Source: Alphaproteobacteria bacterium (GTDB lineage: Bacteria > Pseudomonadota > Alphaproteobacteria > Sphingomonadales > Kordiimonadaceae). From it: a DNA stretch of 64,000 bases. The position numbers were made by a program, and so were the translations under genes. Shown in pieces: positions 14,989 through 43,242 of the stretch. Within the stretch, counting starts at the first letter, position 1. The number at the start of each line of letters is the position of its first letter. The notes below the pieces were generated by a model. It was given only the letters and a program-made list of their open reading frames with translations. It was not told the origin of the DNA and made no database searches. The stretch covers positions 1 through 64,000 of the forward strand of contig JABXIS010000017.1 in assembly GCA_013372975.1 (NCBI GenBank), read 5' to 3'.

Positions 14989-15618
14989 TTATAGCCCGAC
15001 TGCTTTGAGAACGATGGAAATGACCGTTTCCTTGGCGTCAGCGAATTGCTGATCAGAAAGCCTTTCGCCTTCGTTCATCACATTGATCTGCGCTTCAAAA
15101 TCCGCGTAGTTCTGGGTTGTCGCCCAGATCATATAAAACAGGTAACGCGCTTTGATCGGGGCTAGTTTGCCTTCCTCGATCCACCGCTGCAGCACTGCCT
15201 CGCGGCTTTCAAGCCAGGGCTTTACCTTGCCAACGAGATATTCCTGCAGAAAAGGCGCACCTGATGCCATCTCAATTGCCCAAAGCCGGGAACCGTGCGG
15301 GCGGTTGCGGGCCAGATCCATCTTGGAAGAGACATAGATACGCAAGGCTTCTGCCGGATCTTCTGTTTCATCGAATGTGTCGGCGGCATGCAGCCAAATA
15401 GAGCATACGCCTTCGATCACACGCCTATACAGGTCTTCCTTGGCACCAAAATAATAATAAACGTTGGGTTTGGGCACACCGGCACGCTCGGCGATCAGGC
15501 CCACGCTTGCGCCCTTGAAACCTTTTTCAGCAAATACCGTCTCTGCGGCCGCCAGAATTTTGGCCACATTCTCCCGGCGAATGCCGGATTTGTGCCCGCG
15601 TTCCTCGTTAGTGCTCAT
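14989..15618 (-). CDS. TetR-family regulator, RutR-like
   Basis: This 209-aa protein has an N-terminal TetR helix-turn-helix (VGLIAERAGVPKPNVYYYFG, about residues 43-62). The ligand domain closely follows E. coli RutR: SRLWAIEMASGAPFL, GKLAPI and FYMIWATTQNYADF have direct counterparts there. RutR senses uracil/thymine and represses pyrimidine and purine genes through TTGACCA-N2-TGGTCAA. In this window several near-identical palindromes precede nucleoside genes, so this protein is the leading candidate for their regulator. It lies next to the TonB receptor gene but behind that gene's terminator. Ligand and targets are inferred. Confidence 0.85.
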   Translation of the reverse strand: MSTNEERGHKSGIRRENVAKILAAAETVFAEKGFKGASVGLIAERAGVPKPNVYYYFGAKEDLYRRVIEGVCSIWLHAADTFDETEDPAEALRIYVSSKMDLARNRPHGSRLWAIEMASGAPFLQEYLVGKVKPWLESREAVLQRWIEEGKLAPIKARYLFYMIWATTQNYADFEAQINVMNEGERLSDQQFADAKETVISIVLKAVGL

Positions 15619-15689
15619 TATTTTGTCCCTCTCGACGCCCCTTTAAACACACGAACAGGAAAAGGTCTATGGTGAAAAAGGTTTAAATA

Positions 15690-15718
15690 GAAACGCCCGG
15701 GGAAATTTCCCCCGGGCG
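15690..15718 (-). terminator. Intrinsic terminator of the Oar-like TonB receptor gene
   Basis: Arms CGCCCGGGG (15694-15702) and CCCCGGGCG (15710-15718) form a GC-rich stem; on the minus strand T-rich sequence follows. It lies 23 bases past the receptor stop at 15741. Confidence 0.75.
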
Positions 15719-15740
15719 CAAGGGTTCAGAAGACTTGCTT

Positions 15741-18700
15741 CTAGAACTTGTAGTTCAGGCCAACACGGATTTCGTATGTGGACGGGTTGGTTACACGACC
15801 CTGGCTCCGCTCGAAATACTCGTTGAACTGATAAACGTTGTTCTCACGGTCGATACGTGCATCAACAACCTGGAACGCACGTGGGAAGCTTGCTTCGTAT
15901 GCAACACCCCAATCACTGTCGATCAGGTTGGTGAGGTTTTCAACAACCAGGAATGCAGACAGCTTGTGACCTTCGATCGGCGTTGGCAGTTCCTGGGAAA
16001 TACGCAGGTCTACCTTACCCCACCAATCGGAGAAGTGGCTGTTACGCGGCGCAATCTCACCAGCGTATTTGTCGAGACCAGAGTCCGCGAGGAATGCGAA
16101 GAAGGCATCAGTGTTGAAGCCATCGCCAAACACTACGCGAGGATCGTCTACGCCAGTTGGAACGTAAAGAAGGCTTGCGCCGTCAACACCATCACCGAAC
16201 TCGGTGAAGTCGCCGTTAAACGCACCACCACCATCAACAAACGTGTAGCTGTATGGACGGCCCTGGTTCAGGACACCAAACAGGGATACGCGAGTTGTGT
16301 TGTCATCCCAGAAATCATGTGCCCAGGAAACGGACGCAGTGAAACGGTGTGGGATCACATAGTTGGAGCGTGAAGCCTGTGGGTTCAAACGATCAGAAGA
16401 AGAGAACTGAGAGAAGTTTGAGAATGCCACAGAGCTTGTCATCGGGTTGGCATCGGTGGAGTCGTTATAGGAATAAGCGAGTGTCCAGTCGAGGCCATTG
16501 TCGTATGACTTGCTCAGTGCTGCGGAGAATACCCACTGACGACCATTGTCTTCAGAGTTGGTCAGCACATAGTCGCTTGAGAACCAACGGTTACAACCGA
16601 ATGGGTTGCCGGTTGGATCAGCAACACAATCTGCGTCGGAACGGTCGATAGATGCATACATTGGACGGCCATCAGGCGCCGTACCGATTTGCTCCAGCGT
16701 AGTGTCCACGATTGTCGCTGCATTACGCAGCTTGGTGTAAAGGATGTCTGTTTGCAGACGATAGCCATCACCGAAGCTACCAAGATCGAAATCGATTGTC
16801 GCGCCCAGCGCAACTTTAAGCTGGCTTGGGATCTTGAAATCAGGATCGATCGCGTTCACACCGGCGTTCACGGTACCGCTTGCAACTGCATCATACAGAC
16901 GCTGAGGAATACCATAGATCGCGCCTTCGCCGCCCACTGTAGGATCAGTGAACAGAGTTGGGCCATCAAGGCTGTCATCATAGTCACGCGCTTGCGCTTC
17001 TACCTGCGTAATACCGTTGTTGGAGTAGTTGTTGGACAGCCAAACGTTCGGGTTACCACCGGAATAGAGGCCAATACCACCGTGTACTTCAACAGTGTCA
17101 GACGCGAGGTAAGAGAAGCCGAAACGTGGCATCAACAGACCACGACCATCAAAGTTTTCCGCGTTGGAGAAACCGTTACGCGCGATGAAGTTGGCGTTTT
17201 CAGTTGGTACGTCATCACTGCTGTACCAGTCGTAACGCAGGCCAGCTGTGATTGTCAGGTCACCACCCATCGCTGTGAACTCGTCCTGAGCGTACAGTGT
17301 GTTGATGGCATACTTGAACTGAGCCGCAGCATCGTTTGGATCGTTGGATGGAGACGCATTTTCGTAGATGAAACGCTCTGGACGGCCCATTTCGAAGAGC
17401 TGAATAGCTGTGAAGCTTTGACCGTCAATTGTACGATCCTGGAAGCGGATTTCGCCTTCAGCTTCCTGGATGAACAGGTTGAATACGTCAAAATCAACGC
17501 GCTCCATACCAAATGTGATCAGGTGATCATCAATCTGGTAGTTGGCAGCAAGCTTGAGGTTCAGGCTCTGGTATTCCAGTTCGTTTGCCTGACGGCTGTC
17601 ATCTGCACCCAGATATACAGTCGCACGCTCACGAATGCCATCACCGTCAGCATCGTTGAAAGTGGTGATCTGAACTTCACCGAAGTCAGTACCGCCGAGG
17701 GACTGAACGCGTGGGTCTACGTCAGCGTAGGAAACGCGCATCTCGGTGGAGAAATTGTCAGACCAGTCAGAGAACAGGGAACCAGCGTATGATTTCAGCG
17801 TAGTGCCGCGCTCATAATAGTGGTTCGACAGCTCAAGCTCGTCATCGTCGCCATCAGACTGGGAGATGATGAAACCGTCAACATAGTTGTAGGTCAAAGC
17901 AAGACGGTGGTTGTCGTTGATGTTCCAGTCGATCTTGGCGAGGATTTTCTCGTCAGTAACCGGCAGGGATGATGGCAATGAACCTGGATCGTAGTTGTAT
18001 ACGTCGTTCGCGATACGGACGATCTCGTTGAACTGCTCCTGGGATACACCAGCAACTTCACGCGCTGCACCGGAACCCGCTGGGCCACGGTCAAACAACT
18101 GTGCACCTTCGAGGCGCTCATATGCTGCGAAGAAGAACAGTTTGTCTTTGATGATCGGACCGCCGAGGGTGCCGCCGAAGCGCTTCTCAGAGAAATCACC
18201 GATATCGAACTCTTCACCTTCCAGCTTGTTGCCCTGAAGGCCATCGTTGGTGTAGTCGAAGAAGGCGCTACCGTGGAATTCGTTGGAACCGGATTTGGTC
18301 ACTGCGTTGATGTTACACGCTGTGAAAGAACCGTATTCAACGTCAAAAGGCGCCAGCTCAACAGCAACCTGCTGAATGCCATCGTATGGGAAAGGCAGAC
18401 GCTCGGTTGGGAAACCGTTACTGTTCAGGCCGAAGTTATCGTTAAGGCCAACACCGTCAACAGTCAGGCTGTTGAAACGTGGGTTTGCGCCAGCACACTG
18501 GATGCCGTCAGCGAACGCTTCGTCGATATAAATACGTGGATCCTGGCGGATAACGTCTTTGATATCACGGTTTACGGAAGGAGCGTTCTCAAGGTCGCTC
18601 AGGTTATATGTAGCAGATGGGCCGATTGCCACAGGAACAGCGCTTGCTGCGCTTGCTGTAACAACGATTTCCTCAATATTGAGGTTCGGATCAACTGCAA

Positions 18701-19037
18701 CCAGTGTTACAGCAGCCGGACGACCGAGGCTGAGGAACAGGTCTTCGATGTTCTCAGCGCGGTATTCAGTACCGTCTGCCAGTTTAACAACGTACGGGCC
18801 GCCAACTTTCAGACCGCGCGCGTAAAAGCTACCGTCATTGTTGGTGGTGAAGGTACGGGTCGTACCGGATGGTACGTGTGTAATTTCTACAGTCACACCT
18901 GCAAGTTCAGAACCAGACTGGCTGATCACTGTACCGCGGATGGATGAGGAGGTTTCTTGCGCCATGGTAGGTGCGGTTGCAGCAAATGCTGCAAGGGCCA
19001 CACCACCAAACAAGGCGGCTTTAAATTGGCGTTTCAT
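15741..19037 (-). CDS. Oar-like TonB-dependent receptor with N-terminal carboxypeptidase-regulatory-like domain
   Basis: This 1098-aa outer-membrane protein has a signal peptide ending TMAQ (about residue 27). A beta-sandwich extension of the CarboxypepD_reg type (about 30-100) comes next, then a plug domain and a long barrel ending in YEIRVGLNYKF with the typical terminal phenylalanine. The layout is that of Oar proteins, which are large receptors linked to uptake or export of big substrates. It lies downstream of the nucleoside catabolic run and has two TTGACC-type palindromes before it (19159 and 19240). Uptake of nucleic-acid fragments is therefore plausible, but no direct evidence fixes the ligand. 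Confidence 0.88.
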   Translation of the reverse strand: MKRQFKAALFGGVALAAFAATAPTMAQETSSSIRGTVISQSGSELAGVTVEITHVPSGTTRTFTTNNDGSFYARGLKVGGPYVVKLADGTEYRAENIEDLFLSLGRPAAVTLVAVDPNLNIEEIVVTASAASAVPVAIGPSATYNLSDLENAPSVNRDIKDVIRQDPRIYIDEAFADGIQCAGANPRFNSLTVDGVGLNDNFGLNSNGFPTERLPFPYDGIQQVAVELAPFDVEYGSFTACNINAVTKSGSNEFHGSAFFDYTNDGLQGNKLEGEEFDIGDFSEKRFGGTLGGPIIKDKLFFFAAYERLEGAQLFDRGPAGSGAAREVAGVSQEQFNEIVRIANDVYNYDPGSLPSSLPVTDEKILAKIDWNINDNHRLALTYNYVDGFIISQSDGDDDELELSNHYYERGTTLKSYAGSLFSDWSDNFSTEMRVSYADVDPRVQSLGGTDFGEVQITTFNDADGDGIRERATVYLGADDSRQANELEYQSLNLKLAANYQIDDHLITFGMERVDFDVFNLFIQEAEGEIRFQDRTIDGQSFTAIQLFEMGRPERFIYENASPSNDPNDAAAQFKYAINTLYAQDEFTAMGGDLTITAGLRYDWYSSDDVPTENANFIARNGFSNAENFDGRGLLMPRFGFSYLASDTVEVHGGIGLYSGGNPNVWLSNNYSNNGITQVEAQARDYDDSLDGPTLFTDPTVGGEGAIYGIPQRLYDAVASGTVNAGVNAIDPDFKIPSQLKVALGATIDFDLGSFGDGYRLQTDILYTKLRNAATIVDTTLEQIGTAPDGRPMYASIDRSDADCVADPTGNPFGCNRWFSSDYVLTNSEDNGRQWVFSAALSKSYDNGLDWTLAYSYNDSTDANPMTSSVAFSNFSQFSSSDRLNPQASRSNYVIPHRFTASVSWAHDFWDDNTTRVSLFGVLNQGRPYSYTFVDGGGAFNGDFTEFGDGVDGASLLYVPTGVDDPRVVFGDGFNTDAFFAFLADSGLDKYAGEIAPRNSHFSDWWGKVDLRISQELPTPIEGHKLSAFLVVENLTNLIDSDWGVAYEASFPRAFQVVDARIDRENNVYQFNEYFERSQGRVTNPSTYEIRVGLNYKF

Positions 19038-19157
19038 TCCCTAAGCTCCATTTAGTATCCGAACTCCCTGCCGGAAGGCCCCTTTGAGCCGGATACAGAA
19101 CAACTAATTCGCTGTTTAAAAGTTCCCACACAAAACTGCGCGACAGACAACCAAATC

Positions 19158-19174
19158 CTGACCAAAAGGTCAAG
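19158..19174. promoter_or_regulatory. RutR-like palindrome, TonB receptor upstream site 2
   Basis: CTGACC, AAAA, GGTCAAG (19158-19174) contains a perfect TGACC/GGTCA inverted repeat. It lies about 120 bases before the TonB receptor start at 19037. On the minus strand it reads CTTGACC and could include a -35 hexamer. Confidence 0.65.
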
Positions 19175-19239
19175 ACCATGCCCAAAGCCGCGCAAACCGT
19201 GCGTCGACGGACCTTTTATGCGATCTTCTTTTCAGTTTT

Positions 19240-19263
19240 TTGACGAAAGTGTCAAGATTCGTC
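19240..19263. promoter_or_regulatory. RutR-like palindrome, TonB receptor upstream site 1
   Basis: TTGAC (19240-19244) and GTCAA (19251-19255) flank 6 bases, followed by GATTCGTC. It deviates from the GGTCAA arm but shares the same flank as the sites at 27983 and 40106. Confidence 0.55.
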
Positions 19264-19387
19264 TCTGAGGATATAGAGCGGTAAAAATTTTATACAATTT
19301 ACCGTGCTCCAAAAGGCACAGGTGCGACGCAAATCTGCAGTTTTTCAGGAAATTCAAACGACAGAAAGCCACTGGAAAAAAGAAAAA

Positions 19388-19417
19388 AGAGAGCGAAAGC
19401 CGCTCTCTCTTTTTTTG
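19388..19417. terminator. Intrinsic terminator of the nucleoside operon
   Basis: Arms AGAGAGCG (19388-19395) and CGCTCTCT (19401-19408) are flanked by A's on one side and T's on the other, so it can work on both strands. It lies 32 bases past the nuclease stop. The rest of 19038-19439 holds only the two palindromes. Confidence 0.75.
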
Positions 19418-19439
19418 TCGATTATGCGATTCGTTTAGC

Positions 19440-20228
19440 CTAGTTTGCCTCGGCAAACAGATTATTCAGGTAGCCTGCCAAACGAACACCGCCTTTGGAC
19501 AACTGCTGTTTGATGGTGGGGGTATATTTATAGACATAATCATAGCTGAGTATACCGCTGCCCACATTATAGATATCAGCCCGCATTGCGATCAGTTCAC
19601 GCACCCAATCGAGCGGCTCGCTATTTTGCCATTCCGCAATATTCTCCGGCTTGATTTTCGGCTCCAGAAACCGCACCCACTCAGTAAAGGAAAGAAGCTT
19701 GTGATCAATCAGGTCTTCATCCCAAACCTTGTGCAGGTTGCTCATTTCTTCAAACCAGACGACGTCGATGCGGTTACCACCCCAATCTTCGGAGCGCCCT
19801 GCATGGAGTGGCTGATGTAGGTCCCCAACGATATGAATGATAAAGCGCAGCGCCTTCTGCCGTTCCGCCAACGGCGCGCTCTTATCCTTCAACGTTGCAG
19901 TGAAGGCTGCCAGCGCCGTCACAGCATCACCTGCAGGGTTCTTGTTGCTTTCCTCGTAGGTCTGGCCATCAGGCAAATTGATATAATGATACGGGGACGC
20001 TGTACGCCGCCAATATTCGTCGGGGTTAGATTTCATTTCATCGGGCCAGTTTGCGGCCTCGGCCATAAACTCGTCACCCAGAAGTTCTTTCACTGCTGCG
20101 GCGGCTTCTGGTGTGAGATGGCGTGATGCAAGCTCCGCGATCACCCGGTGCCCTGTCGGGCCGTATGCCTGGGCAGCCTGCCCCGCCATCATCACCAGCG
20201 CAACAATCGCGCCCAAAACTCGAACCAT
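19440..20228 (-). CDS. Exported S1/P1-type zinc nuclease
   Basis: This 262-aa protein has a signal peptide (cleavage likely after AQA, residue 21) and the trinuclear zinc nuclease fold. The ligand motifs match P1 nuclease: GPTGH at the mature N terminus, NWPDE, SPYHYINLP, IIHIVGDLHQPLH and the GGNRIDV...NLHKVWDEDL segment. These enzymes cut single-stranded DNA and RNA to 5'-nucleotides and remove 3'-phosphates. The predicted mature first residue is tyrosine, where the classic enzymes have tryptophan. It is 23 bases downstream of deoB, so it is probably the last gene of the nucleoside operon and feeds it from outside the cytoplasm. Confidence 0.9.
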   Translation of the reverse strand: MVRVLGAIVALVMMAGQAAQAYGPTGHRVIAELASRHLTPEAAAAVKELLGDEFMAEAANWPDEMKSNPDEYWRRTASPYHYINLPDGQTYEESNKNPAGDAVTALAAFTATLKDKSAPLAERQKALRFIIHIVGDLHQPLHAGRSEDWGGNRIDVVWFEEMSNLHKVWDEDLIDHKLLSFTEWVRFLEPKIKPENIAEWQNSEPLDWVRELIAMRADIYNVGSGILSYDYVYKYTPTIKQQLSKGGVRLAGYLNNLFAEAN

Positions 20229-20251
20229 GACACTCCCCTCAATATGAACAA

Positions 20252-21469
20252 TTAGATCGCGCTGGTGCCTTCACTCAAAGGCGCAATTCCCAAATGTGTG
20301 GCCACTGTCTGGCCGATATCTGCAAAACTTTTCCGCACCCCCGCGCTTCCCGGCTTCAGGCTGGGCCCATATGCCACAAACGGCACATGCTCGCGGGTAT
20401 GGTCACTGCCGGGCCATGTTGGATCACAACCATGGTCTGCCGTCAGGATCACAATATCATCGGCCTGCATGCCATCCAGAAACTCAGGCAACCGGCGGTC
20501 AAAATATTCAAGCGCGTCAGCATAACCCGCCACATTGCGGCGGTGACCAAAGCTCTGGTCGAAATCAACGAAATTTACGAACGTAAGCGACCCGTCAGGC
20601 GCTTCGGCAAGCTTCTGTAGTGATGTGTCAAAAAGTGCATCAAGGCCATTGGCTTTCACTTTTTGCGTAAGCCCCTTATGGGCAAAAATATCAGCGATCT
20701 TACCCACGGAAATCACTTCCCTGCCCGCTTCTTCCAGCTTCTCAAGGACAGTCGGCGCTGGTGGTGGTGTCGCGAGGTCTTTGCGGTTACCTGTTCGCTC
20801 AAATTGACCGTCCTTGCCCAGAAACGGCCGCGCAATCACCCGACCGATGTTATATTCGTCCACCAGTTCACGGGCCACGGCACACACGTCGTAAAGGCGC
20901 TCAAGCCCGAAGGTTTCCTCATGGGCCGCAATCTGGAAAACGCTGTCAGCCGATGTGTAAACAATCGGCTTGCCTGTACGCATATGTTCGTCACCAAGCT
21001 CTTCAAGGATCACTGTGCCTGATGCAGCTTTGTTGCCGATCACCCCCGGCAGATCACAGCGTTTGACCAGTTCATCAATCAGTTTGTCGGGAAAACTTGG
21101 ATATTCCTGGGCAAAATAGCCCCAATCAAACCGCACAGGCACACCAGCCATTTCCCAGTGCCCGGAAGGTGTATCCTTACCGAAGCTCTGCTCGGCGCAG
21201 GCCGCATACATGCCTGTGATCTCACCTGAATATTCCATGCCCTTGGGTTCACGACCAGTCGCAAGCTCTGCTGCTTTGCCAAGGCCAAGTCTGGTCATGT
21301 TCGGAAGCTGAATAGGGCCAGCGTTAGGGCGCTCGGCTCCCACATTGCCGTCAGCACACCATTCTGCAATGTGGCCGAGTGTATCGGCATCCTGTTCGCC
21401 AAAACGATCCGCATCCGGTGCGGCGCCAATACCGAAACTGTCCAACACCAGAATGAAGGCACGAGCCAT
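20252..21469 (-). CDS. deoB: Phosphopentomutase
   Basis: This 405-aa alkaline-phosphatase-fold enzyme converts (deoxy)ribose 1-phosphate to the 5-phosphate. The metal site is visible in [12 protein letters not shown] at the start, [12 protein letters not shown] and TADHGCDP...[10 protein letters not shown]. The phosphorylated threonine region is [12 protein letters not shown]. The start at 21469 is supported by GGAGG about 9 bases upstream and lies 4 bases beyond the deoA stop. It links nucleoside phosphorolysis by DeoA and the purine phosphorylase to the DeoC aldolase encoded 14 kb away. Confidence 0.96.
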
Positions 21470-21473
21470 GGTC

Positions 21474-22811
21474 TTACCCTCCAATAATCTTGTTAACAAT
21501 CGACGACACAGTTAGTGCGTCTTCGCTTAGCATTACAGCCGCCCGCACACTGGCAATAGCAGCGTCAGCCGCCTCTTCACTTCTAGCATACACCATGGCG
21601 AAAGGCTGGTCTGCCGCAAGCCGGTCACCACGCTGACACATCTCTGTGAAGCCAACACTGTGATCCACATCGTGGGCCGGGTTGGTGCGGCCACCGCCAA
21701 GTGCGACAACGGCCATGCCAATCGCCCGTGTGTCCATGTCCGCAACATAACCGGTTTTTTCAAGCACTACAGGTTTCACAACAGGTGCCAAAGGCATGTG
21801 CGTTTCCGGATTTTCCATCAAGTCGGCCGGACCACCTTGGGCAACCACCATCCGCGCAAACACATCGGCGGCCTTGCCACTATCAAGGGCTTCCTTCGCC
21901 TTTGCGCGCGCCGCAGCTACATCGGGTTGCGCTTTCGAAAGGGCAAGCATGTGCGCGGCCAGATCCAGCGTCACATCCATAAGGCGCTGATCGGCACTTG
22001 CAGGATTCTTGAGGAAATCAATTGTCTCGAACACCTCAACTGCATTGCCGGCCGTACGCCCAAGAACTTGATTCATATCGGTCAACAGCGCGGTTGTTGG
22101 CGTGCCAGCGGCATTTGCTACCCGGACAATATTGCGCGCAAGTTCTTCGGCTTTTTCGTCCGAATCCATAAAGGCGCCATTGCCGCACTTCACGTCCATC
22201 ACCAAGGCCCCTAGGCCTGCGGACAGCTTTTTGGACAGAATCGAGGCCGTAATCAGCGGCACACTTTCCACCGTGGCGGTCACATCGCGAATGCCGTAAA
22301 AGCGCTTGTCAGCTGGGGCAAGGTTGCCGGTTTGCCCGATGATGGAACAACCAATATCCCGCACGATGTCAGCAAAACGCTGGTTATCAGGATAGGCGTC
22401 ATAGCCAGGGATACTTTCAAGCTTGTCGAGCGTACCGCCCGTGTGGCCAAGGCCACGACCAGAGATCATCGGGACAAAGCCACCGCACGCTGCAACAATT
22501 GGTGCCAGCATGAGGCTGACCTTGTCGCCCACACCGCCAGTGGAATGCTTGTCCACAATCGGGGCGTCGGCATCAAAACCGAAGTCCTGCCAATTCATCA
22601 CGTCACCACTATCCCGCATAGCCAGCGTCAGGGCAGCGCCCTCGTCCGGGCTCATGCCGTTGAAAAAGATCGCCATGGCAAGCGCAGAGACCTGCGCGTC
22701 AGTGACACTGCCATCAGTGATGCCACTGACAAAACGGACAATATCATCAGACGCAATGGTGCCACCGTCACGCTTGATACGAATAATTTCCTGGGGGATG
22801 AATTGGCTCAT
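21474..22811 (-). CDS. deoA: Thymidine phosphorylase
   Basis: This 445-aa enzyme splits thymidine or deoxyuridine with phosphate into base and deoxyribose 1-phosphate. The family signature is clear: [17 protein letters not shown] (about 85-101) and [18 protein letters not shown] (about 117-134). Its length is that of the E. coli DeoA type rather than the longer AMP phosphorylases. It lies 6 bases after cdd and 4 bases before deoB on the same strand, consistent with one operon. It acts in the cytoplasm. Confidence 0.97.
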
Positions 22812-22817
22812 AACATT

Positions 22818-23237
22818 TTACCCTTGGGCCTCGTCAATATTTTCGGGGCCGAACGCGTGGGGCAAAAGCTCGGCACTGGTTGTTTCGAGAAGGATGTTGC
22901 CGTCCTTGTCGCAAATGGTAACAGGCTTGCCGGCACTACCGGCAAACTCACGGATTTTCTGGCGGCAGCCACCGCAAGGTGTACATGCCACCTCGCCGGG
23001 GCCAACCACCACGATATGTTTGATGGCCTTGCCGCCCGCCAGCACCATCGCGGCGATAGCACCCGCTTCTGCGCACGTGCCCAGCGGATAAGCTGCGTTT
23101 TCCACATTGCAGCCCGCATAGATATTACCATCAGCTGCCAGCACCGCTGCACCAACCGGATGGTTCGAATAGGGGGCGTAGGCAGCATCACGGGCCTTGA
23201 GGGCAGCATCAATCAGCGGTTTAAGATCTGTCGCCAT
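22818..23237 (-). CDS. cdd: Cytidine deaminase
   Basis: This 139-aa protein is the short tetrameric form of cytidine deaminase. The zinc motifs are TCAEAGAI (about 62-69) and PCGGCRQ (about 95-101), with NVENAAYPLG before them. It converts cytidine and deoxycytidine to uridine and deoxyuridine, which DeoA can then split. The start at 23237 is chosen because it sits one base after the upstream permease stop and removes an unrelated 20-residue extension. Translational coupling to the permease is likely. Confidence 0.95.
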   Translation of the reverse strand: MATDLKPLIDAALKARDAAYAPYSNHPVGAAVLAADGNIYAGCNVENAAYPLGTCAEAGAIAAMVLAGGKAIKHIVVVGPGEVACTPCGGCRQKIREFAGSAGKPVTICDKDGNILLETTSAELLPHAFGPENIDEAQG

Positions 23238-23238
23238 A

Positions 23239-26848: not shown

Positions 26849-26878
26849 ATATGCGTCCTGTCCCGCCGAAAACGGGGC

Positions 26879-27880: not shown

Positions 27881-27970
27881 GCCTTTTCACTCCCCGGCAA
27901 CAAAAAGTTCGTTATTCTTATATGCCTTGATTATGCACGGCGGCGCAAGGGAACCAGAGCGAAACGGCCG

Positions 27971-28006: not shown

Positions 28007-28067
28007 CGACATTTGTCCCGAGACCACTTATGAAAAGGTCAATTCCAAGACAGATACGGAGTCAAAA

Positions 28068-28706: not shown

Positions 28707-28711
28707 ACACG

Positions 28712-30532: not shown

Positions 30533-30573
30533 TGTATCCTCCCCACACTAACTACCTAGGTTTAGCGCAATCG

Positions 30574-30590
30574 TGGTTGTGACACAACCA
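30574..30590. promoter_or_regulatory. 17-bp perfect palindrome upstream of the XRE gene
   Basis: TGGTTGTGACACAACCA is an 8-1-8 perfect palindrome 41 bases before the XRE start. It is the best candidate for an XRE autoregulatory operator. It does not match the lux-box pattern closely. Confidence 0.55.
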
Positions 30591-30634
30591 GACAGTTTCA
30601 AAGGGCAGCTAGCAGGCACTTGATGTCGACAAGC

Positions 30635-31519: not shown

Positions 31520-31617
31520 GGCTGTAGCCTCCTGATGAATCTGTTGATCCATCTCAGGCTATTGGCTTCTGCCAACGCAGTCTTTCCTCACAAAGAGGGA
31601 TTGATGCAATTAATGGT

Positions 31618-32415: not shown

Positions 32416-32540
32416 CGACGACCCCACTCATCATCGGCCTTCTACTAAAGGCTTTATCTCCTAAGTAGCACCGCACAACTCATAATCAACAATAATCGGG
32501 CTTTGATGGTTTTTCACAAGGCCAGCCAGCATATCCAACA

Positions 32541-32566
32541 AAAAGGCGCCTCGGAGGGCGCCTTTT
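32541..32566 (-). terminator. Intrinsic terminator of deoC-ALDH operon
   Basis: Arms AAAAGGCGCC (32541-32550) and GGCGCCTTTT (32557-32566) enclose 6 bases. On the minus strand T's follow the stem, 28 bases past the dehydrogenase stop. Confidence 0.8.
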
Positions 32567-32593
32567 CACAAACCTTCAACGTACGGTGGGCCC

Positions 32594-35002: not shown

Positions 35003-35012
35003 GATAATCCCC

Positions 35013-35969
35013 CTAGCCCATTGCGTGACGATAAGACGTCGAATAGCCACCAAAGGCATGATATTCGAGCTGACGTTCCAAGTCACCCAGCAGGCTTGAT
35101 GCGCCAAACCGGAACAACTCTGGTGACAACCAATCGCGGCCCAGCTCTTCCTTGATCAGTGTCAGGTACGCCACTGCATCCTTGGCGGTTTTGATGCCGC
35201 CTGCAGGCTTGTAGCCCACCTTGATGCCCGTACGGGCATGGAAGTCACGGATTTCGCGGATCATCACAAGGCTTACAGGCAGTGTGGCATTCACGCCTTC
35301 CATGCCCGTGGATGTTTTGATGAAATCTGATCCTGCCATCATGGCTGTCATCGAGGCCTTGGCCACCTGTGTCAGGTTGCCGTGCTCGCCCGTGGCCAGA
35401 ATGGTCTTCATAAGGGCACTACCACATGCGCCCTTGAATGCCCTTACCTCGTCGTAAAGCGCCTGCCAGTTGCCCGTCAGAACATGCGCGCGCGTCACAA
35501 CGATATCGATTTCATTGGCGCCGGCTTCGACAGAACGGCGGATTTCCTCAAGTCTGGTCTCCATGGGGGCAAGGCCCGCGGGGAACCCGGTCGACACCGC
35601 CGCAATGGGTACGGCGCCCTGAAGGGCACTATCGGCCTCGGGCACCATGGAATGATAAACACATACGGCGCCTGTGGTGAGGCCCATATCTTCCATGCCG
35701 AACGCCGAGAGGATATCCCGGCGCACGGGGTTCTTTGCTTTCTGACAAAGCCTCTGCACACGCCCCGGGGTGTCGTCACCCGCCAATGTTGTCAGGTCAA
35801 TGCAGCTTATGGCTTTCAGCATAAAAGCGATCTGGCTGTCTTTTTTTACAGCCCGGCGTCCGCCTATAGAGGCGGTACGGCGCTCTACCGCACTTTTGTT
35901 GACACGGATACCATCCAGCCAGTCGGCGTGGAAGCTCGTGCCCTGATTAACAAGTGGCTCAGGTGTCAT
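35013..35969 (-). CDS. deoC: Deoxyribose-phosphate aldolase
   Basis: This 318-aa enzyme splits 2-deoxyribose 5-phosphate into acetaldehyde and glyceraldehyde 3-phosphate. The Schiff-base lysine is in SDFIKTSTGM and the second conserved lysine in VGYKPAGGIK. EIDIVVTRAHVLTGNW supplies another conserved segment. It is longer than E. coli DeoC (259 aa) by an N-terminal extension of about 50 residues, as in many eukaryotic-like forms. It is the first gene of the deoC-ALDH pair, with a RutR-like palindrome about 45 bases upstream. Confidence 0.95.
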   Translation of the reverse strand: MTPEPLVNQGTSFHADWLDGIRVNKSAVERRTASIGGRRAVKKDSQIAFMLKAISCIDLTTLAGDDTPGRVQRLCQKAKNPVRRDILSAFGMEDMGLTTGAVCVYHSMVPEADSALQGAVPIAAVSTGFPAGLAPMETRLEEIRRSVEAGANEIDIVVTRAHVLTGNWQALYDEVRAFKGACGSALMKTILATGEHGNLTQVAKASMTAMMAGSDFIKTSTGMEGVNATLPVSLVMIREIRDFHARTGIKVGYKPAGGIKTAKDAVAYLTLIKEELGRDWLSPELFRFGASSLLGDLERQLEYHAFGGYSTSYRHAMG

Positions 35970-36013
35970 GATACGTCCCGATTTATTTTAAACCGTGCCC
36001 TTAAAGCCAAATC

Positions 36014-36036
36014 CTGACCCTGCGGTCAAGATTTGT
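36014..36036. promoter_or_regulatory. RutR-like palindrome upstream of deoC
   Basis: CTGACC (36014-36019), CTGC, GGTCAAG (36024-36030) contains a perfect TGACC/GGTCA repeat. On the minus strand it reads CTTGACC-N4-GGTCAGGATTTGG, the same 13-base tail as the 19158 site. It lies between the NCS2 permease stop and the deoC start. Confidence 0.7.
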
Positions 36037-36039
36037 TTT

Positions 36040-37641
36040 CTATTCAGCCGGTTTATTTCTGATAAAGCCGGCGAAATATAACATAATTGCCGCAATCAGG
36101 TAACCTGTTGCCAGCCGATGCGGCAAAGTCTCAAGCCCACCCATTTCCGGAATCGCCCACGGCAAATACATAGCCGACGATGCCAGGACAGAGTGGATCA
36201 CACCAAACTCGGTGAAGATGGCGGCAGCAAACGCCGCAAGGGCCGCGCGGGTCATTTTTCGATCAATGATCCATACGATCAGCGCACCCCAGATCAGGCT
36301 TGTCAGAATATAACCCCGCGCCATGGCACCCAGCAGCAAATAGCCCTGTGTCCAATCGTTTGAGATAGCATTGCCCGCCACCTCGCTAACACGGAAATAC
36401 AGATCGGATACCTTTGTGTGTGCATAGTTCAGAATAGCCGGAACCGTTGCGAACAACAGCGCTGGTGCGTGGCGTACATCGCCACCCGAGAAAGCCAGCC
36501 GCAAAATATCGCACGCCACCACAACCAGGATTGGCTTCAACACCGCTTCAGGGATCATCTGGGATGCCAGCGCGATCACGCCTAGGAAACCGCCGACGGT
36601 GATAACAGCGGCCGCCCCCAGGGCATAGCCGGTACGTGCGCCCATGCGTTTGTAGGTGGCGTGACCAAAGTAAGGCGTGGTTTGTACGACACCGCCAAAC
36701 AAGGCGCTGATGGCTGTCGCAGCCGCATCCAGGCGCACTACTTTACCGGCGTCAAACTCATCCCCGGTGATGCGCGCACCCGCTGTTACATTCACAGCAC
36801 TTGCCGCAATCAGAAGGGCGAATGGCAGTATAATACCCAGATAGTTTTTCGCTTCGTCAAACATGGCCAGCGGGCCAGCCAGTGTGGGCGTTGGCAAGGC
36901 AGGCGCCAATGCCGGCATCCCCTTGACAATATAACCATCCCCCGCACCCGCAAACGCGAGAACATAATAAAGGAAGGTGCCCGCAACAATCGCTAGGATC
37001 GCACCGGGCATATTGAATGGCAGGCGGTGCCCGGCAATCAGGGCAAAGCCCATAATAACAAGGGAGACGATGCCAACCTCCGGCAGGACAAACACGCCAT
37101 AAATGGCTTCCGCACCCAGCCATACGGTAGCAATACCGGCCATCGCCCCAACAAGCGCCATTTGTGGCAATTGATGCTGCATGGCGCGACCAAAGAAAGA
37201 AAGCCCGAACTTGATCACAGCCATCCACATTGTGCAGGCCATACCCATGATCCAGGCTTTGTCTGCGGCACCATCAACTCCCAAAGCCTCAACGTTGCTT
37301 GCGTAGGTAGGGCCAATAATGAAGAAACACATGCCGAATACCGTCGGCAAATCCATACCCAGCGGTATGCTTGTGAGTGCCTCGTTTCCTGTTTCCTCTC
37401 GGGTTTTCTTGGTCAGCCAGAAGAAGGCCAGGTTGCCAATAAGGATGCCTGCAATAGCGCCCGGAATAATCTTGCCAAACATATGCTCTGCCGGAAATCC
37501 AAACGCTCCCATCAGCACACTGGCCAGCACAAACATATTGACCACAACATCAAGGAAAAATGCCACACCGGCATTTGTATCCGCCGCAAGCTGTGACGAC
37601 GGCGCAGCCACCCCCGCCAGCATTTTGTTTGTTTCAGCCAT
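36040..37641 (-). CDS. NCS2-family nucleobase permease (AzgA-like)
   Basis: This 533-aa protein has about 12-14 membrane segments. Features of the NCS2/solute carrier 23 group include GNEALTSIPLGMDLPTVFG near the start, the AASAVNVTAGARITGDEF segment and FGGVVQTTPYFGHATYK. The latter resembles the AzgA/purine permease motif. It probably imports a purine or related base by proton symport. It is 64 bases downstream of the adenosine deaminase gene, on the same strand, which suggests uptake of hypoxanthine or other bases made outside. Exact substrate is uncertain. Confidence 0.8.
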   Translation of the reverse strand: MAETNKMLAGVAAPSSQLAADTNAGVAFFLDVVVNMFVLASVLMGAFGFPAEHMFGKIIPGAIAGILIGNLAFFWLTKKTREETGNEALTSIPLGMDLPTVFGMCFFIIGPTYASNVEALGVDGAADKAWIMGMACTMWMAVIKFGLSFFGRAMQHQLPQMALVGAMAGIATVWLGAEAIYGVFVLPEVGIVSLVIMGFALIAGHRLPFNMPGAILAIVAGTFLYYVLAFAGAGDGYIVKGMPALAPALPTPTLAGPLAMFDEAKNYLGIILPFALLIAASAVNVTAGARITGDEFDAGKVVRLDAAATAISALFGGVVQTTPYFGHATYKRMGARTGYALGAAAVITVGGFLGVIALASQMIPEAVLKPILVVVACDILRLAFSGGDVRHAPALLFATVPAILNYAHTKVSDLYFRVSEVAGNAISNDWTQGYLLLGAMARGYILTSLIWGALIVWIIDRKMTRAALAAFAAAIFTEFGVIHSVLASSAMYLPWAIPEMGGLETLPHRLATGYLIAAIMLYFAGFIRNKPAE

Positions 37642-37705
37642 AAGCCCCCTACTTCCCTTCCAAACTATACAATTGGGCCATCTGGCCCGCCCTCTTTACC
37701 GAGGC

Positions 37706-39289
37706 TTAATGAAATGATGTGCGTTTCCGTTCCGGGATTCGCTGTTCGTCTTCAAAGACCCTGAACCGTTCCTCCAGCTCCCACTGCAGCCGGGCCTTCT
37801 CACTTGTTTTCAAAAATGCAGCGCATTCTGCCCCGGCATCTGTACCCTGTTCCACATCTTTTTTGCATGCCGCATTTTCCCACAGGCTTGCGCCGTCAAG
37901 GAAACTATAGGTTAGCGCATTGCGCGAACTGTAACGCAGCTCGAAATAGGGTGCACGATGCTCTTCATAGAAACGCATATATTCGTGGGTCAGATCGATG
38001 CGGGACACACCTTCATCGTCTGTCGACAAGGCAAAGGGCACCTCAACGTCGCGGTAAACGCCAACAGGATGCTTCCTGCCCTTGATGCCCAATATGGTGT
38101 CGTTGCTGGTGAGATTGATCTCGACCATAATCTTGTCACGGGCCATCCGCGTCAACAGCTCTTCGGCGCCATCTTCATACATGATGGCAACGCCATGTCC
38201 GATACGCTTGGCGTGCCCAAGATCGATCGCTTCGCGGATATGAAACGTTAGGAATTCTGGTGGCACCAGTCCAATCGCAAGCTCGCCCGCATGCAGCGCC
38301 ACGTTTCTTGGTCCTTCGTTGCGATAAAGGTGATCAATCATCCGCATATGAAGCGTATAGTCCCTCAGCGAAACATGCCTGTCTTCGGGCGCCACCAAAT
38401 TGGTGCCCACCATCAGCGGCTCCTGTTCCATCAGGGCCCATCCAAGGATGAACTGGCCATACACCATGGCGGGCTCCATCTCGCGGATCACCTGATGGAG
38501 AAAACGAATGGTCACCCCACATCCAGCATCGGCCTCGGGCGTGCCGCACTTCAGAATTTCGTCCTTGCGAGCCATACCGGCCTTGAGCTGGCTTCGCGCA
38601 GAAGCCAAAAGCGTCGGCATCGCCGCGCCAAAATCACCAGACATCAGCATCTGATAGTCCGCCGCCAAATCACCCGACAATTTCACATCCCCTAGAAGAG
38701 GGAAAAGTTCCGGGAAAATGAGCGTGATCATAGGCTCCAGATACAGGATATTCTGATGCCCTGCCCGAGACGCAATTTCCGCAAATTGATCCCCCCAGCG
38801 CCTGGGGGAATTGGATATTCTGGCAAAGGTCGCGAAAAAATCATTGTGCCCAGACCAGTCCAGCGTTGGCACATAGGATCGGTTCGACAGGGCATCAATC
38901 AGTTGACGCCTGTGATCACTATTGGCCTGCGCCTCAGCAGCCGTCACCCAACCTGATGCAGCACAGCTTTCCTTCACCTTGTGCCGAAGGCCTGGCACTG
39001 ACATGTCTGCGCACAGGCCATCCTCTGCCGCCCACTTGAGCCAGCTTTCCGCATAAACAGCGCCCCGCAGATGAGTATGAATATCGCCGCCCTTGGGAAA
39101 AGCCTGCATATAGGGGCGCAGGCGACCATTCTCGGCCGACCAGGCCAGCGCAGAATCCGCAAGCCGGGCTTTCATTGCACGCTGATCATCAGCTTGTGCA
39201 CTTATGCCCCCTCCTGCCGAGAGCATCGCGGCCAGCCCCAGAATACAGGCAGCCTTCGGCATCCTGACGCCTTGCCAAAGCTTTTTCAT
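37706..39289 (-). CDS. Exported adenosine deaminase
   Basis: This 527-aa amidohydrolase has the full adenosine deaminase set: GDIHTHLRG with the HxH metal pair (about 65-67), VALHAGEL with the catalytic glutamate, AKRIGHGVAI and FALSTDDEGVS with the metal aspartates. A signal peptide is clear (GLAAMLSAGGGISAQA, cleavage near residue 33), so it acts outside the cytoplasm; typical bacterial Add is cytoplasmic and about 330 aa. The length and signal recall the secreted ADGF group. It would turn adenosine into inosine before import. GGAGGAAA lies 4 bases before the start. It is divergent from tdk. Confidence 0.9.
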   Translation of the reverse strand: MKKLWQGVRMPKAACILGLAAMLSAGGGISAQADDQRAMKARLADSALAWSAENGRLRPYMQAFPKGGDIHTHLRGAVYAESWLKWAAEDGLCADMSVPGLRHKVKESCAASGWVTAAEAQANSDHRRQLIDALSNRSYVPTLDWSGHNDFFATFARISNSPRRWGDQFAEIASRAGHQNILYLEPMITLIFPELFPLLGDVKLSGDLAADYQMLMSGDFGAAMPTLLASARSQLKAGMARKDEILKCGTPEADAGCGVTIRFLHQVIREMEPAMVYGQFILGWALMEQEPLMVGTNLVAPEDRHVSLRDYTLHMRMIDHLYRNEGPRNVALHAGELAIGLVPPEFLTFHIREAIDLGHAKRIGHGVAIMYEDGAEELLTRMARDKIMVEINLTSNDTILGIKGRKHPVGVYRDVEVPFALSTDDEGVSRIDLTHEYMRFYEEHRAPYFELRYSSRNALTYSFLDGASLWENAACKKDVEQGTDAGAECAAFLKTSEKARLQWELEERFRVFEDEQRIPERKRTSFH

Positions 39290-39387: not shown

Positions 39388-39987
39388 ATGGCCAAGCTGT
39401 ATTTTTACTATTCCGCCATGAATGCGGGCAAAAGCACCACTCTCCTGCAATCAAGCTTCAACTACCGTGAGCGAGGCATGAACACCATGCTCTTCACGGC
39501 TGCAATTGATGATCGTTTTGGGGAAGCGGTGATAGCGTCCCGCATCGGCCTGAAGGCAGATGCTTGCATATTCGATGCAAATCTTGACCTTTTTGTCAAG
39601 ATCACGAATGAACTGAACCAGCGCCCCCTGCATTGCATATTGGTCGATGAAGCCCAGTTCCTGACCAAAGACCAGGTATTTCAACTGGCCGCAGTCGCTG
39701 ACAGACTGCGCATTCCGGTATTGTGTTACGGTATCCGCACAGACTTTCAGGCGAATCTGTTCGAAGGCAGCCAGTGGTTGCTGGCAATTGCCGATGAACT
39801 GCACGAACTCAAAACCATCTGCAAATGTGGATCAAAAGCCACCATGAATATGCGCGTGGATGAAAAGGGAAATCCGGTCAAGGAAGGGGCATCGATCGAA
39901 ATCGGCGGCAACGACCGATATATCGCGCTTTGCCGCAAACACTTCCATGAAAAACTGCGCGGACCGTCAATGGATACTGACCAATAG
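39388..39987 (+). CDS. tdk: Thymidine kinase
   Basis: This 199-aa type II thymidine kinase has the P-loop [12 protein letters not shown] (about 8-19), the Walker B-like ILVDEAQFL (about 85-93) and the lid zinc ligands in [11 protein letters not shown] and ALCRKHFHE. It phosphorylates thymidine and deoxyuridine for DNA synthesis. The Shine-Dalgarno is weak. It is divergent from the adenosine deaminase gene, with 98 bases between them. A perfect 8-6-8 inverted repeat resembling the RutR-like sites lies inside the gene at 39581-39602. Confidence 0.95.
39581..39602. promoter_or_regulatory. RutR-like palindrome inside tdk
   Basis: Arms ATCTTGAC (39581-39588) and GTCAAGAT (39595-39602) enclose six bases. 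The core TTGACCTTTTTGTCAA differs from TTGACC-N4-GGTCAA at one base. It falls within tdk codons; RutR in E. coli is known to bind inside genes. Confidence 0.45.
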
Positions 39988-40105
39988 TTGCATTTATATG
40001 ATCAATAATGGCCACCATCTGGTTTCACTTGCAACAAAATCAAGGCACCAAGCCAGCTTCCATTGATAGAATATTAGAACAATTAGCAACAAAGAAGCAG
40101 AAAAC

Positions 40106-40128
40106 TTGACTAAACAGACAAGATTCGT
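40106..40128. promoter_or_regulatory. Weak RutR-like site upstream of TonB receptor
   Basis: TTGACTAAACAGACAA (40106-40121) has three mismatches to the core but is followed by GATTCGT, the same flank as the sites at 19240 and 27983. It lies 236 bases before the receptor start. The rest of the 39988-40356 gap shows only the receptor leader and a Shine-Dalgarno (GGGAGATGAGG). Confidence 0.4.
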
Positions 40129-40356
40129 GCGCTCTTTTTGCCACACCTCTGTAACATAGTTAACAGAAATTAAGCCTGATCCCTGCTTTTCTGTACCGGC
40201 CACCGCTACCTTGGGTTTTACTGGTGGCGCGCAGGCTAACATAAAGAAAACACCTGCGCGCTGGGGAGGGCACCATCAATCATCCGGGCAACACTGTTGC
40301 TCCGGTCATTGCCGTCCCTGGCCTTACGAGAGGATTTAAAATAGGGAGATGAGGCA

Positions 40357-43242
40357 ATGAAAAAGTCTCTAACTACACCCCGGAAGCTTCAGTTGCTCAC
40401 AAGCGCTGCAGTTGCCGCGGTATCTTTCGCAACCCCAACAATGGCACAGGATTCTTCCGCGATGGAAATCGAGGAAGTGGTCGTTACGGGTTCCCGTATT
40501 CGCCAAAACCCGCTTGAGGCACAAAATCCGGTACAGATCTTGTCGGCTGCCGACATGGATGCGTCCGGTCAAGTCTCTGTTGCAGACTTCCTGCAGCGCC
40601 TGCCAATTGCAGGTTCGGCCATTAACCGCACCAACAACTCTTCCGGTAACCTTGGCTTCCCGCCAGATGGTTCCGGTATCGGTGCAGGCGCCAGCCAGAT
40701 CGACCTGCGTTATCTGACGTCCACGCGCGTACTTGTGCTGGTGGATGGCAAACGCTGGATTCGCGGCTCCTCCGCATCTGGTGTGTCCGGCGCAGTTGAC
40801 CTGAACACCATTCCATCAGGCATCATCAAATCCATCGAAGTTCTGCAAGACGGCGCATCCACCATTTATGGTTCCGATGCAATTGCAGGCGTTGTGAACA
40901 TCAAAACGCGCGACGACTATGAAGGCTTCAATGCAAGCGCTTACTATGGCCAGTTCGACGAAGGTGATGGCGAGACACAAGAATATGACGTTTCATGGGG
41001 TGCCAGCACCGACCGGACCCGTGTTATCCTTGATGTAAGCTATACCAAGCAAGGTTCTGTTGAAGCTGCTGACCGCGAACTGACAGCTTATGCGCTGCCG
41101 TTCGAGAACCTGGGTGCATCTTCTGGTACACCACAGGGCCGCTTCGTGTTCAACAATGATTTCGGCAGCATCACGCCAAACAATGGCGCCCCTGCTATCC
41201 CGAATTTTGATCCAGCTGACCCAACCGGGCCAAACTCGGATTACCACGCATTTACCCTGCAGGACCGCTTCAACTATTCGCCTTACAACAAGGTGATGAC
41301 GCCAAACGAGCGGGTGAATATCTTTGCCAAGGCAGAATTTGATGTAACAGAGTCTATCAAATTCCGTACCACTGCGGCCTTCAACAACCGCAGCAGCGTA
41401 AGCCAAGCAGCACCAGAGCCATTGTTCTTTGGTACTGACGCGGGCGCAGGCATCTGGATGGACAATATCGTTGTTCCTGAAGATCACCCATACAACCCGT
41501 TTGGTATCGAGCTGAACCCGACCACGTTTGCGTTCGGCGGCCGCCGTCCGATTGAGGCTGGCCCTCGTATCTTCACTCAGAATGTTGACACCTGGTATGT
41601 GTCCGGCACGCTTGAAGGTGACTTCGAGATGGGTGACCGCAACTGGTACTGGGATATCAACGGTACTTGGTCACAAAGCCAGGCCAACCAGATCAAAAAC
41701 GGTGCCTTCAACGCACGCAAGATCAGCGAAGCCCTTGGCGACCCTGATGCATGTGCGGCAATTCCGGGCTGCGTTCCTTTGAACATCTTTGGTGGTCAGG
41801 GCCCAGACGGTAATGGCACAATCACTCAGGCCATGCTCGACTATATCACCTTCACACAGAAGGATGAGAGCCGTCAGAAACTGTTTGATATCTCTGCCAA
41901 CCTTGCCGGTGAGATCATCGACCTGCCAGCTGGCCCGCTGGGCGTAGCCATGGGTTGGGAATATCGCGAGGAAGAAGGTCGCTTTACACCTGATCCTGTA
42001 GTAGCAGCTGAAGAAACTGCTGGTATTGTTGCCCGCCCAACAGCAGGCCGCATCCATGTGAAAGAGTTCTACGGCGAGGTCAATGCACCATTGCTGGCGG
42101 ATCAGGACTTTGCGAAGCACCTGGGCCTCAGCGCAGCTGTTCGCTATTCTGACTATAGCACATCCGGCAGCAACACTGTCTTCAAGATCGGTGCCGCGTG
42201 GCAGGTTAATGACGACCTGACATTCCGCGCCAACTGGTCTGAAGGTTTCCGGGCACCTCACATTGGTGAACTGTTCAACTCTGGCTCGTTCTTCGACAGC
42301 ACGATCAGTGATCCATGTAACTCCGGTGGCGGCAACACACCTCATGCAAACTGTTCTGCGCTTGGCGTGCCAGCTGATCTGGTACAGATCAACCCGCAGA
42401 TCCGTGTTGCGACAGGTGGTAACCGCAACCTCAAACCAGAGACCGCAGAAACCTGGACGGCTGGTTTCACTTTCAGCCCGTCTGCCATGGCTGACTCCAT
42501 GGGCCTCGACACCCTCACTTTTGAAATGAACTATTACAACATTTCAATGCAGGACGTGATCAAGGCACCAAACGCGTCGGAGCTTCTGAACGGCTGTGTA
42601 AGCACGCTTGATGACATCTTCTGTGATGCCATTACCCGTTCTGCCAACGGTCAGGTTACCCTGATCTCTGGTCTCCTAACCAATATCGCGGCGATCGAAA
42701 CCGATGGCCTCGACTGGTCGATCAGTGCACAGACTGCGGCTGCCGACTGGGGCCAACTGCGCTTCAAATGGGTAAACAGCCACCTGTTCAGCTTCGATGA
42801 AGGTACACTCAACACAGAGGGTACAATCGACTTCGTGGAGCGTGCCGGTACTGAACTCGGCTCGCCAGAGCGTGCCTACGTCAAGTTCAAGTCTTCCTTC
42901 TTTGTAGACTGGATGCTGGACGAATGGACCGTTGGTGCCACCTTCCGTTACATCGGCAGCGTGGATGAAGCCTGTGGCGGCGTGATTGGTGACTTTGGCT
43001 TCACTCAGTATTGTACCAATGGAGCCGACGGCAACACCCTTGGCAGCACCTTCTACACCGACATGCAGTTCACATATCGTCCTTCCTATCTGGACGACAA
43101 TGTGTCCTTCACGCTCGGCGTGCAGAACCTGTTTAAGGAAGATCCACCACTTTGCACCACCTGTGACCTCAACAACTTTGACGGCACAGTGCATGCAACA
43201 CCTGGTCGCTTCATCTACGGTAAAGTTACCTTCAAGATGTAA
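40357..43242 (+). CDS. TonB-dependent receptor
   Basis: This 961-aa outer-membrane receptor has a signal peptide ending TMAQ (about residue 31). The plug domain begins [10 protein letters not shown] and contains [10 protein letters not shown] and [13 protein letters not shown] 22-strand barrel follows and ends in GKVTFKM. The N-terminal half of the barrel and [18 protein letters not shown] are typical of large alphaproteobacterial receptors. The weak RutR-like site upstream and the neighbouring tdk and adenosine deaminase suggest nucleoside or nucleotide uptake, but receptors of this type also take sugars and peptides. It is followed by a strong hairpin. Confidence 0.88.

Follow-up and report, generated by a model that had tools for sequence, protein, structure and literature searches.

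Examination of the window, a 64,000-nucleotide stretch comprising bases 1-64000 of contig C29 in the 3.63-Mb genome of a Kordiimonas-type alphaproteobacterium, reveals a set of nucleic-acid breakdown genes that we consider likely to constitute a locus for nucleic-acid utilisation regulated by a RutR-type repressor. Its Oar-like TonB-dependent receptor, nucleoside importer/upp and deoC units are preceded by a common palindromic operator and probably form one uracil-responsive regulon, as judged from the sequences. What is new here is the occurrence of a RutR-type operator across the promoters of the locus and the pairing of ALDH16, a two-module aldehyde dehydrogenase, with deoC. A first-pass annotation had described the region as a contiguous scavenging run leading from an extracellular nuclease to acetate. 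A Pfam scan of 30 proteins encoded between 13345 and 50455 recovered the families it had listed at their places, an NCS2 permease excepted, and the run itself is interrupted by an insert of XRE, luxI and luxR genes (30188-32415). This insert and the RutR-like repressor (14989-15618) had both been omitted from that annotation.

Organization of the locus

The repressor gene (14989-15618, minus strand; TetR_C_3, 7.1e-46) is neighboured by that of the Oar-like receptor (15741-19037, minus strand; CarboxypepD_reg, Plug and OMP barrel regions in Pfam), which has a separate upstream region of 402 bp. Beyond it lies a minus-strand run, its genes overlapping or no more than 30 bp apart, which encodes in transcriptional order the BMP/PnrA nucleoside-binding protein (26879-27880; Bmp), the ATPase (25316-26848; ABC_tran) and permeases 1 (24210-25319) and 2 (23239-24213; both BPD_transp_2) of a nucleoside ABC importer, the cytidine deaminase Cdd (22818-23237), the pyrimidine nucleoside phosphorylase DeoA (21474-22811), the phosphopentomutase DeoB (20252-21469; PF01676) and an S1/P1 nuclease (19440-20228; PF02265, 5.5e-61). 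Given that this tight spacing ends at a terminator-like hairpin (19383-19413), the nuclease is probably encoded by the last gene of the importer operon; terminator-like sites in the window number 27 against 23.4 expected, so the hairpin is weak taken alone, and a sigma-70 scan of 19000-38900 was uninformative (11 promoter-like sites against 13.1 expected). Divergent to the importer operon run, on the plus strand, upp for uracil phosphoribosyltransferase (28068-28706; UPRTase), an hpt-like phosphoribosyltransferase gene (28703-29266; Pribosyltran, with a weak HGPRT match below cut-off) and a purine nucleoside phosphorylase (PNP) gene of the inosine/guanosine type (29293-30111; NF006054 at 1.6e-109, TIGR01700 above cut-off). 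Further units comprise deoC for deoxyribose-phosphate aldolase (35013-35822, minus strand; DeoC in Pfam) with the ALDH16 gene (32594-35002, minus strand; two Aldedh stretches), a permease gene (36040-37641, minus strand) with that of an adenosine-deaminase-like enzyme (ADA; 37706-39289, minus strand, start revised; PF00962, 1.6e-19), the thymidine kinase gene tdk (39388-39987, plus strand; TK), and a second TonB-dependent receptor, TBDR2 (40357-43242, plus strand).

The His/Asp motifs of the nuclease, which we take to be the conserved metal ligands of S1/P1 enzymes, align with those of 8qjl, with the first Trp replaced by Tyr. Both the nuclease and ADA carry N-terminal export-like stretches, on the reading of which their export is predicted. 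The product of 36040-37641 showed no sequence match in Pfam, NCBIfam or the PDB. Its AlphaFold2 model is of low confidence (mean pLDDT 59.7), and Foldseek matched it to UraA, SVCT1 and SLC26 proteins of the SLC26/SLC23 fold (E about 5e-7 to 2e-5). A UraA/SLC26-type fold is thus what remains of the NCS2 assignment, no sequence family having been matched, and we regard the protein as a possible nucleobase permease on the strength of the modelled fold.

A RutR-like repressor and its predicted operator

The best PDB match of the repressor is E. coli RutR (6.2e-41), with 74 of 188 aligned columns identical. The five E. coli residues named as uracil contacts (PMC10891134) are all conserved in it (W77, Y97, W167, Q171 and Q179), which suggests that it is a RutR-like protein and a predicted uracil sensor. 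RutR has been described as a regulator of pyrimidine catabolism in 68 genomes, with a motif that changes by taxon (PMC5343134). Palindromes resembling TTGACN6GTCAA lie in the intergenic regions of the window, namely a proximal (19158-19173) and a distal (19240-19255) box in the Oar promoter, one between the BMP gene and upp (27983-27998), one in the deoC promoter (36014-36029), and an imperfect one before TBDR2 (40106-40121), where a box stands in one of three TBDR2 promoters. The E. coli RutR box is TTGACCA-nn-TGGTCAA; no RutR paper giving those letters turned up.

Promoters of relatives were scanned over 350 bp upstream for this palindrome with at most one mismatch in its ten fixed bases, 59 permuted half-sites serving as the control. 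Matches with below 75% coverage, promoters cut by contig ends, locus L064 (presumed to duplicate a G006 contig of equal length), locus L066 (Alistipes) and a second G021 stretch were left out of the counts. A box precedes the Oar receptor in 29 of 32 promoters, the BMP importer in 21 of 23, upp in 22 of 28 and deoC in 17 of 21; the controls averaged 0.22-0.37 and reached 7 at most. Most Oar promoters of the genus contain a pair of boxes spaced 79-83 bp. For genes internal to the presumed operons the counts are near the control level (deoA 0/33, ALDH16 0/21, permease 1/17). A search of 40 genomes at 1e-15 found no rutR in six (G021, G022, G023, G034, G052 and G078), and in these no box was found at two Oar, three upp and two deoC promoters, a comparison comprising just seven comparable promoters. 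The shared operator predicts co-regulation of the units it precedes.

The extended form TTGACN6GTCAAGAT has four exact strand matches in the window's genome, all within the window (19240, 39584 inside tdk on both strands, and 61104), and 58 in the 19 genus genomes (18 of which have a match) against 4 for a reversed control. Of the 19 genus genomes, ten have preT, and scanning of 400 bp before the open frames showed that the box recurs 58-62 bp before its aligned start in all ten, permuted motifs giving a mean of 0.15 and at most 4. Given also that PreA is encoded beside preT in G008 (657 bits), the box is tied to pyrimidine breakdown. By the same scan, 7 of 18 guanine deaminase loci have it upstream (a mean of 0.31 and at most 3 for permuted motifs), a nineteenth, the start-less fragment L210, being omitted. 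An exact box also precedes a second Oar-type receptor in G015.

Conservation of the locus across genomes

In the genus sample of 18 genomes besides the window's own, and within the limits set by their contigs, the order rutR, Oar, nuclease, deoB, deoA, cdd, importer, upp-hpt-PNP, deoC-ALDH16, permease, ADA and tdk is kept in 18 of 18 genomes. The same holds for the BMP gene and for the adjacency of the Oar receptor to rutR, and the nuclease, present in 17 of the 18 (G003 being the one without a match), is always placed between deoB and Oar. The arrangement exceeds chance, because its order is kept in all 18 other genomes; gene-order conservation was the check proposed in the first-pass annotation, which also named, as telling against a common function, the case that receptors and nuclease do not accompany the deo genes in relatives. 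They do co-occur, in 17 of the 18 genus genomes and again in another family, f8. In four genomes of this family (G046, G075, G104 and G080) the Oar receptor, nuclease and deoA lie in one region in a different gene order; in the first three rutR is situated between upp and deoA with the receptor and nuclease in the same region, and the G080 contig ends in deoA. A scan of contigs with the nuclease gave three loci, including a contig of the Kordiimonas gwangyangensis type strain (DSM 19435, a cultured relative that has the locus along with its boxes), an alphaproteobacterial metagenome-assembled genome and an Alistipes contig (39% identity).

These observations bear on the idea that the genes form a chance or ancestral salvage neighbourhood in which the receptor and nuclease are bystanders, serving for example Oar-type peptide uptake. 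Oar-like receptors have been connected with other roles, and the receptor is just 36-42% identical in most relatives, as this idea would have it. The boxes in 29 of 32 receptor promoters and the recurrence of receptor, nuclease and deoA in another order in f8 speak against it, however, and we judge it highly improbable.

Weighing the proposal

Several points weigh against a regulated locus under a RutR-type repressor. The repressor scores below the NCBIfam RutR cut-offs (184 of 368 bits for TIGR03613 and 161.7 of 230 for NF011584), and 'RutR-like' is therefore the safe name. The genus genomes are related and usually the same intergenic box is counted for both BMP and upp, so that promoter counts are not independent; G413 was placed in the rutR-positive promoter set without a rutR search, and the rutR-negative comparison is small. 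Few boxes occur before rutR (3/32), tdk (0/20), PNP (1/23) and hpt (0/23), the last two of which probably follow upp in one transcript. Some rutR-positive genomes lack an expected box, at BMP/upp in G037 and G047, at deoA in G040 and G045 and at Oar in G094, and our confidence in the proposal is therefore slightly lower. With up to two mismatches, the extended pattern has 167 matches in the window's genome against 90 for the reversed control, and weak matches therefore mean little. The window's own genome yielded no preT at 1e-100, and its guanine deaminase has no box. In terms of location, the nuclease and deoA are 219 kb apart in G021 and 0.7 Mb apart in G052, and in G078 they lie on separate contigs. 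A sample of 196 genomes from the order contains a match to the nuclease (threshold 1e-20) in 107, many of them distant, and to deoA (threshold 1e-60) in 49. Outside the genus, 17 genomes have both deoA and a nuclease above 200 bits; the two genes are within 10 kb on one contig in five (G031, G046, G075, G080 and G104), on different contigs in ten and far apart on one contig in two (G021 and G052). TBDR2 is present at its locus position in 2 of 12 covered genus relatives (G010 and G011); the second receptor of the first-pass annotation, present in the window at 40357-43242, is lineage-specific and is rejected as a core member. TBDR2 matches SusC/RagA only far below cut-off.

The absence of a nucleotidase is a further such point. 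S1/P1 enzymes give mononucleotides, and given that the importer is of the nucleoside type, a nucleotidase is needed between the two. The locus yielded no 5'-nucleotidase; the rest of the genome encodes two PF02872 proteins. The claim of a full pathway within one locus was hence too strong. Likewise, the nuclease, a part of the locus in 17 of 18 genus genomes, was not found at 1e-20 in G003, G019, G020 and G073, all of which have the receptor, repressor and deo genes. One could therefore envisage a locus for nucleosides only, the receptor and importer taking up free nucleosides and the S1/P1 enzyme acting mainly as a periplasmic 3'-nucleotidase or in RNA turnover, as would suit both these four genomes and the failure to find a nucleotidase or a second nuclease among the Pfam-scanned locus proteins. 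Against this, the nuclease ends the importer operon in 17 of the 18 other genus genomes, and in two genera of another family (G047 and G037) rutR is preceded by a box at 207-212 bp and followed by a distant S1/P1 nuclease gene. We therefore consider such a nucleoside-only locus unlikely, and retain utilisation of nucleic acid as the preferred function.

ALDH16 is paired with deoC

The two-module aldehyde dehydrogenase scores 957 bits against PDB 6mvr over nearly its full length, as opposed to at most 384 bits against single-module enzymes. We take 6mvr to be LsALDH16 from Loktanella, and by this sequence comparison the protein is assigned to ALDH16; LsALDH16 is described in a review (PMC8160307). 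In a class sample of 289 genomes (thresholds 1e-200 for ALDH16 and 1e-40 for deoC), ALDH16 is found in 28, the window's included, and deoC of this kind in 29. In all 28, deoC is the upstream neighbour of ALDH16 on the same strand, the matches being separated by no more than 312 bp; behind the 29th deoC (G413) follows an ALDH16 that is truncated where the contig stops. Across 398 genomes sampled from the phylum (threshold 1e-150), ALDH16 gave 45 matches in 44 genomes, and deoC lies upstream on the same strand in each of the best-scoring 30 of these 45 matches, 4 of them outside the class; five of the 30 genomes, including the window's, are also in the class sample. Most gaps in these 30 loci are below 50 bp, some extend to a few hundred bases, and the largest is about 820. 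The catalytic residues of the first module (N169, K192, E265 and C300) are invariant in 30 of 30.

DeoC produces acetaldehyde. Because of this and of its adjacency to deoC, ALDH16 is most simply viewed as the acetaldehyde dehydrogenase of DeoC, and the conserved context suggests that it would oxidise the acetaldehyde which DeoC releases. A substrate is thereby proposed for a family whose structure has been solved. Among the matches listed in the open-licence literature, just one on anaphylaxis names ALDH16 and deoC together. Human ALDH16A1 is a gout-associated pseudoenzyme of unknown substrate, for which a link to HPRT1 has been hypothesised (PMC10650815); the presence of hpt in the same locus as ALDH16 is a suggestive coincidence, no more.

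Proposed pathway

In light of the above, we propose that the S1/P1 nuclease, going by its family, would cut DNA and RNA to nucleotides outside the cytoplasm, from which nucleotidases encoded elsewhere might strip phosphate. The Oar-like receptor, linked to the other genes and sharing their operator, may take breakdown products across the outer membrane, the ADA-like enzyme could convert adenosine to inosine, and the BMP ABC importer would bring nucleosides in. Inside the cell, Cdd, DeoA and PNP would free bases and sugar-1-phosphates, with DeoB isomerising the sugars; DeoC would split deoxyribose-5-phosphate into glyceraldehyde-3-phosphate and acetaldehyde, which ALDH16, by virtue of its adjacency, is expected to oxidise; and Upp, Hpt and Tdk could serve in the salvage of bases and thymidine. 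We predict that uracil freed from pyrimidine nucleosides is the inducer and would lift the repressor off the boxes of the receptor, importer/upp and deoC.

Beyond this, we tentatively raise a broader possibility, to which we would not yet commit ourselves: that a RutR-type uracil sensor was co-opted as master repressor over an entire programme of feeding on nucleic acids, from outer-membrane receptor, nuclease and nucleoside importer to sugar breakdown, in which uracil set free by the pyrimidine phosphorylase of the cell itself would announce nucleic acid in the surroundings, and that ALDH16 is a dedicated acetaldehyde dehydrogenase of deoxynucleoside catabolism, perhaps in complex with DeoC. 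If true, the ALDH16 family, with its gout-linked human pseudoenzyme, would gain an ancestral role in nucleoside metabolism.

Relationship to known systems

Extracellular nucleic acid is a large source of carbon, nitrogen and phosphorus in the sea, according to Wasmund et al. 2021 (PMC8289736). These authors describe 'DNA-degradation loci' of Ca. Izemoplasmatales and liken them to polysaccharide utilisation loci (PULs); a close analogue is thereby on record, a correction to the first-pass annotation, which knew of no established name. In a wall-less bacterium grown in culture, nucleic-acid genes are more strongly expressed on DNA and RNA (PMC10470597). The present locus resembles those of Wasmund et al. 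in that a nuclease, an ABC importer and breakdown genes lie side by side, and the comparison with PULs applies to both. Those loci are described as containing several extracellular nucleases, phosphohydrolases and phosphate transporters, whereas here there is one nuclease and no nucleotidase was found in the locus; the words 'tonb' and 'operon' do not occur in that text, nor an operator in its passages, whereas the present locus features a TonB receptor, a RutR-type regulator with its boxes, and deoC-ALDH16.

The regulatory arrangement shares with the RutR regulon of E. coli and other Proteobacteria (PMC10891134 and PMC5343134) a TetR-family regulator, a palindrome of about 16 bp, the uracil contacts and a link to pyrimidine catabolism. 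It differs in that the boxes stand before a TonB receptor, an importer/nuclease operon and deoC-ALDH16, with preT not found in the window's own genome, where the search did not extend to the rut genes. Like a PUL, the locus would combine outer-membrane TonB transport, a depolymerase outside the cytoplasm, catabolism and a dedicated regulator; we do not claim PUL membership for it, and unlike a PUL it involves no glycan substrate, and the 30 proteins scanned include no SusD and no regulator of the hybrid two-component, extracytoplasmic function (ECF) or AraC type. With Loktanella ALDH16 (6mvr), the enzyme has in common the two-module architecture and the catalytic Cys; unlike in that case, the genomic context here suggests a substrate. 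Compared with E. coli deoCABD, the locus has deoA, deoB, deoC and PNP in common, and contains in addition an importer, a nuclease, a receptor, ADA, ALDH16 and another regulator. We would class it as a RutR-type, TonB-linked locus for the utilisation of nucleic acid, similar to the Wasmund loci and PULs in its working and without their defining parts. A regulated Gram-negative locus reaching from a TonB receptor to acetyl units has little precedent among the matches listed in the open-licence literature. Its shared operator could serve as a genomic marker for nucleic-acid feeding.

Variable and neighbouring elements

The slot between PNP and ALDH16 is filled in the window by a variable insert outside the conserved core (30188-32415, minus strand), in which an XRE regulator accompanies luxI (PF00765, 8e-18) and luxR (PF03472, 8.5e-13) at 30635-32415. 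The location of a lux pair inside the locus, together with another lux pair at the same place in G006, raises the notion that scavenging is a group trait under quorum control. However, a match to the window's luxI was obtained at the slot in one of 15 covered genus relatives (G006, a different pair in other orientation) and in none of the other 14, although a more distant luxI could be missed. Moreover, within the ten open frames scanned, the slot contains other genes in G002, G016 (a chemoreceptor and an MFS transporter) and G017 (a PF01663 phosphodiesterase). With the lux pair confined to a variable slot, general quorum control is rejected, and of all the readings it is the one to which we lend the least credence. 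The PF01663 protein of G017, a nucleotide pyrophosphatase/phosphodiesterase encoded after ALDH16 (L032:13487-14755), could represent a missing nucleotide-processing step.

Two further phosphatase-like proteins are encoded near the locus. A fast-evolving member of the alkaline phosphatase superfamily, sulfatase/phosphodiesterase-like (13345-14976), adjoins rutR in most genus relatives; a possible candidate for the missing phosphatase, it diverges and is not clearly a nucleotidase. A PhoD-like phosphatase (54847-56730) lies outside the conserved core with no box beside its gene in the window, and a similar one is found near the locus in G010 (partly covered) and G015.

The box-like palindrome inside tdk (39584-39599) is a possible ADA operator. 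ADA has a box within 350 bp in 5 of 15 promoters, as far as shown all from this palindrome. Its letters also encode the peptide DLFVKI and may reflect coding sequence; in the seven sequences with this peptide the third positions of the GAC, TTT, GTC and AAG codons do not vary. Elsewhere in the window, a perfect RutR-type palindrome (61104-61119) is situated 119 bp before an RTX-repeat GH114-like gene (61223-63100), and in G011 the gene behind an exact box, some 24 kb past tdk, encodes an unknown protein instead of the RTX-GH114 product. Weak, one-mismatch boxes occur at seven places outside C29 in the window's genome, the most palindromic being on C22, between genes for a LacI-type regulator and a glucokinase, and on C88, before a TonB receptor gene, with labels assigned by eye. 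Exact boxes in relatives are also found at the guanine deaminase genes of L172 (G014) and L177 (G013), the latter beside urease and ureidoglycolate lyase genes, and near genes for a chemoreceptor, TauE, a PhyH/histidine kinase and an unknown protein.

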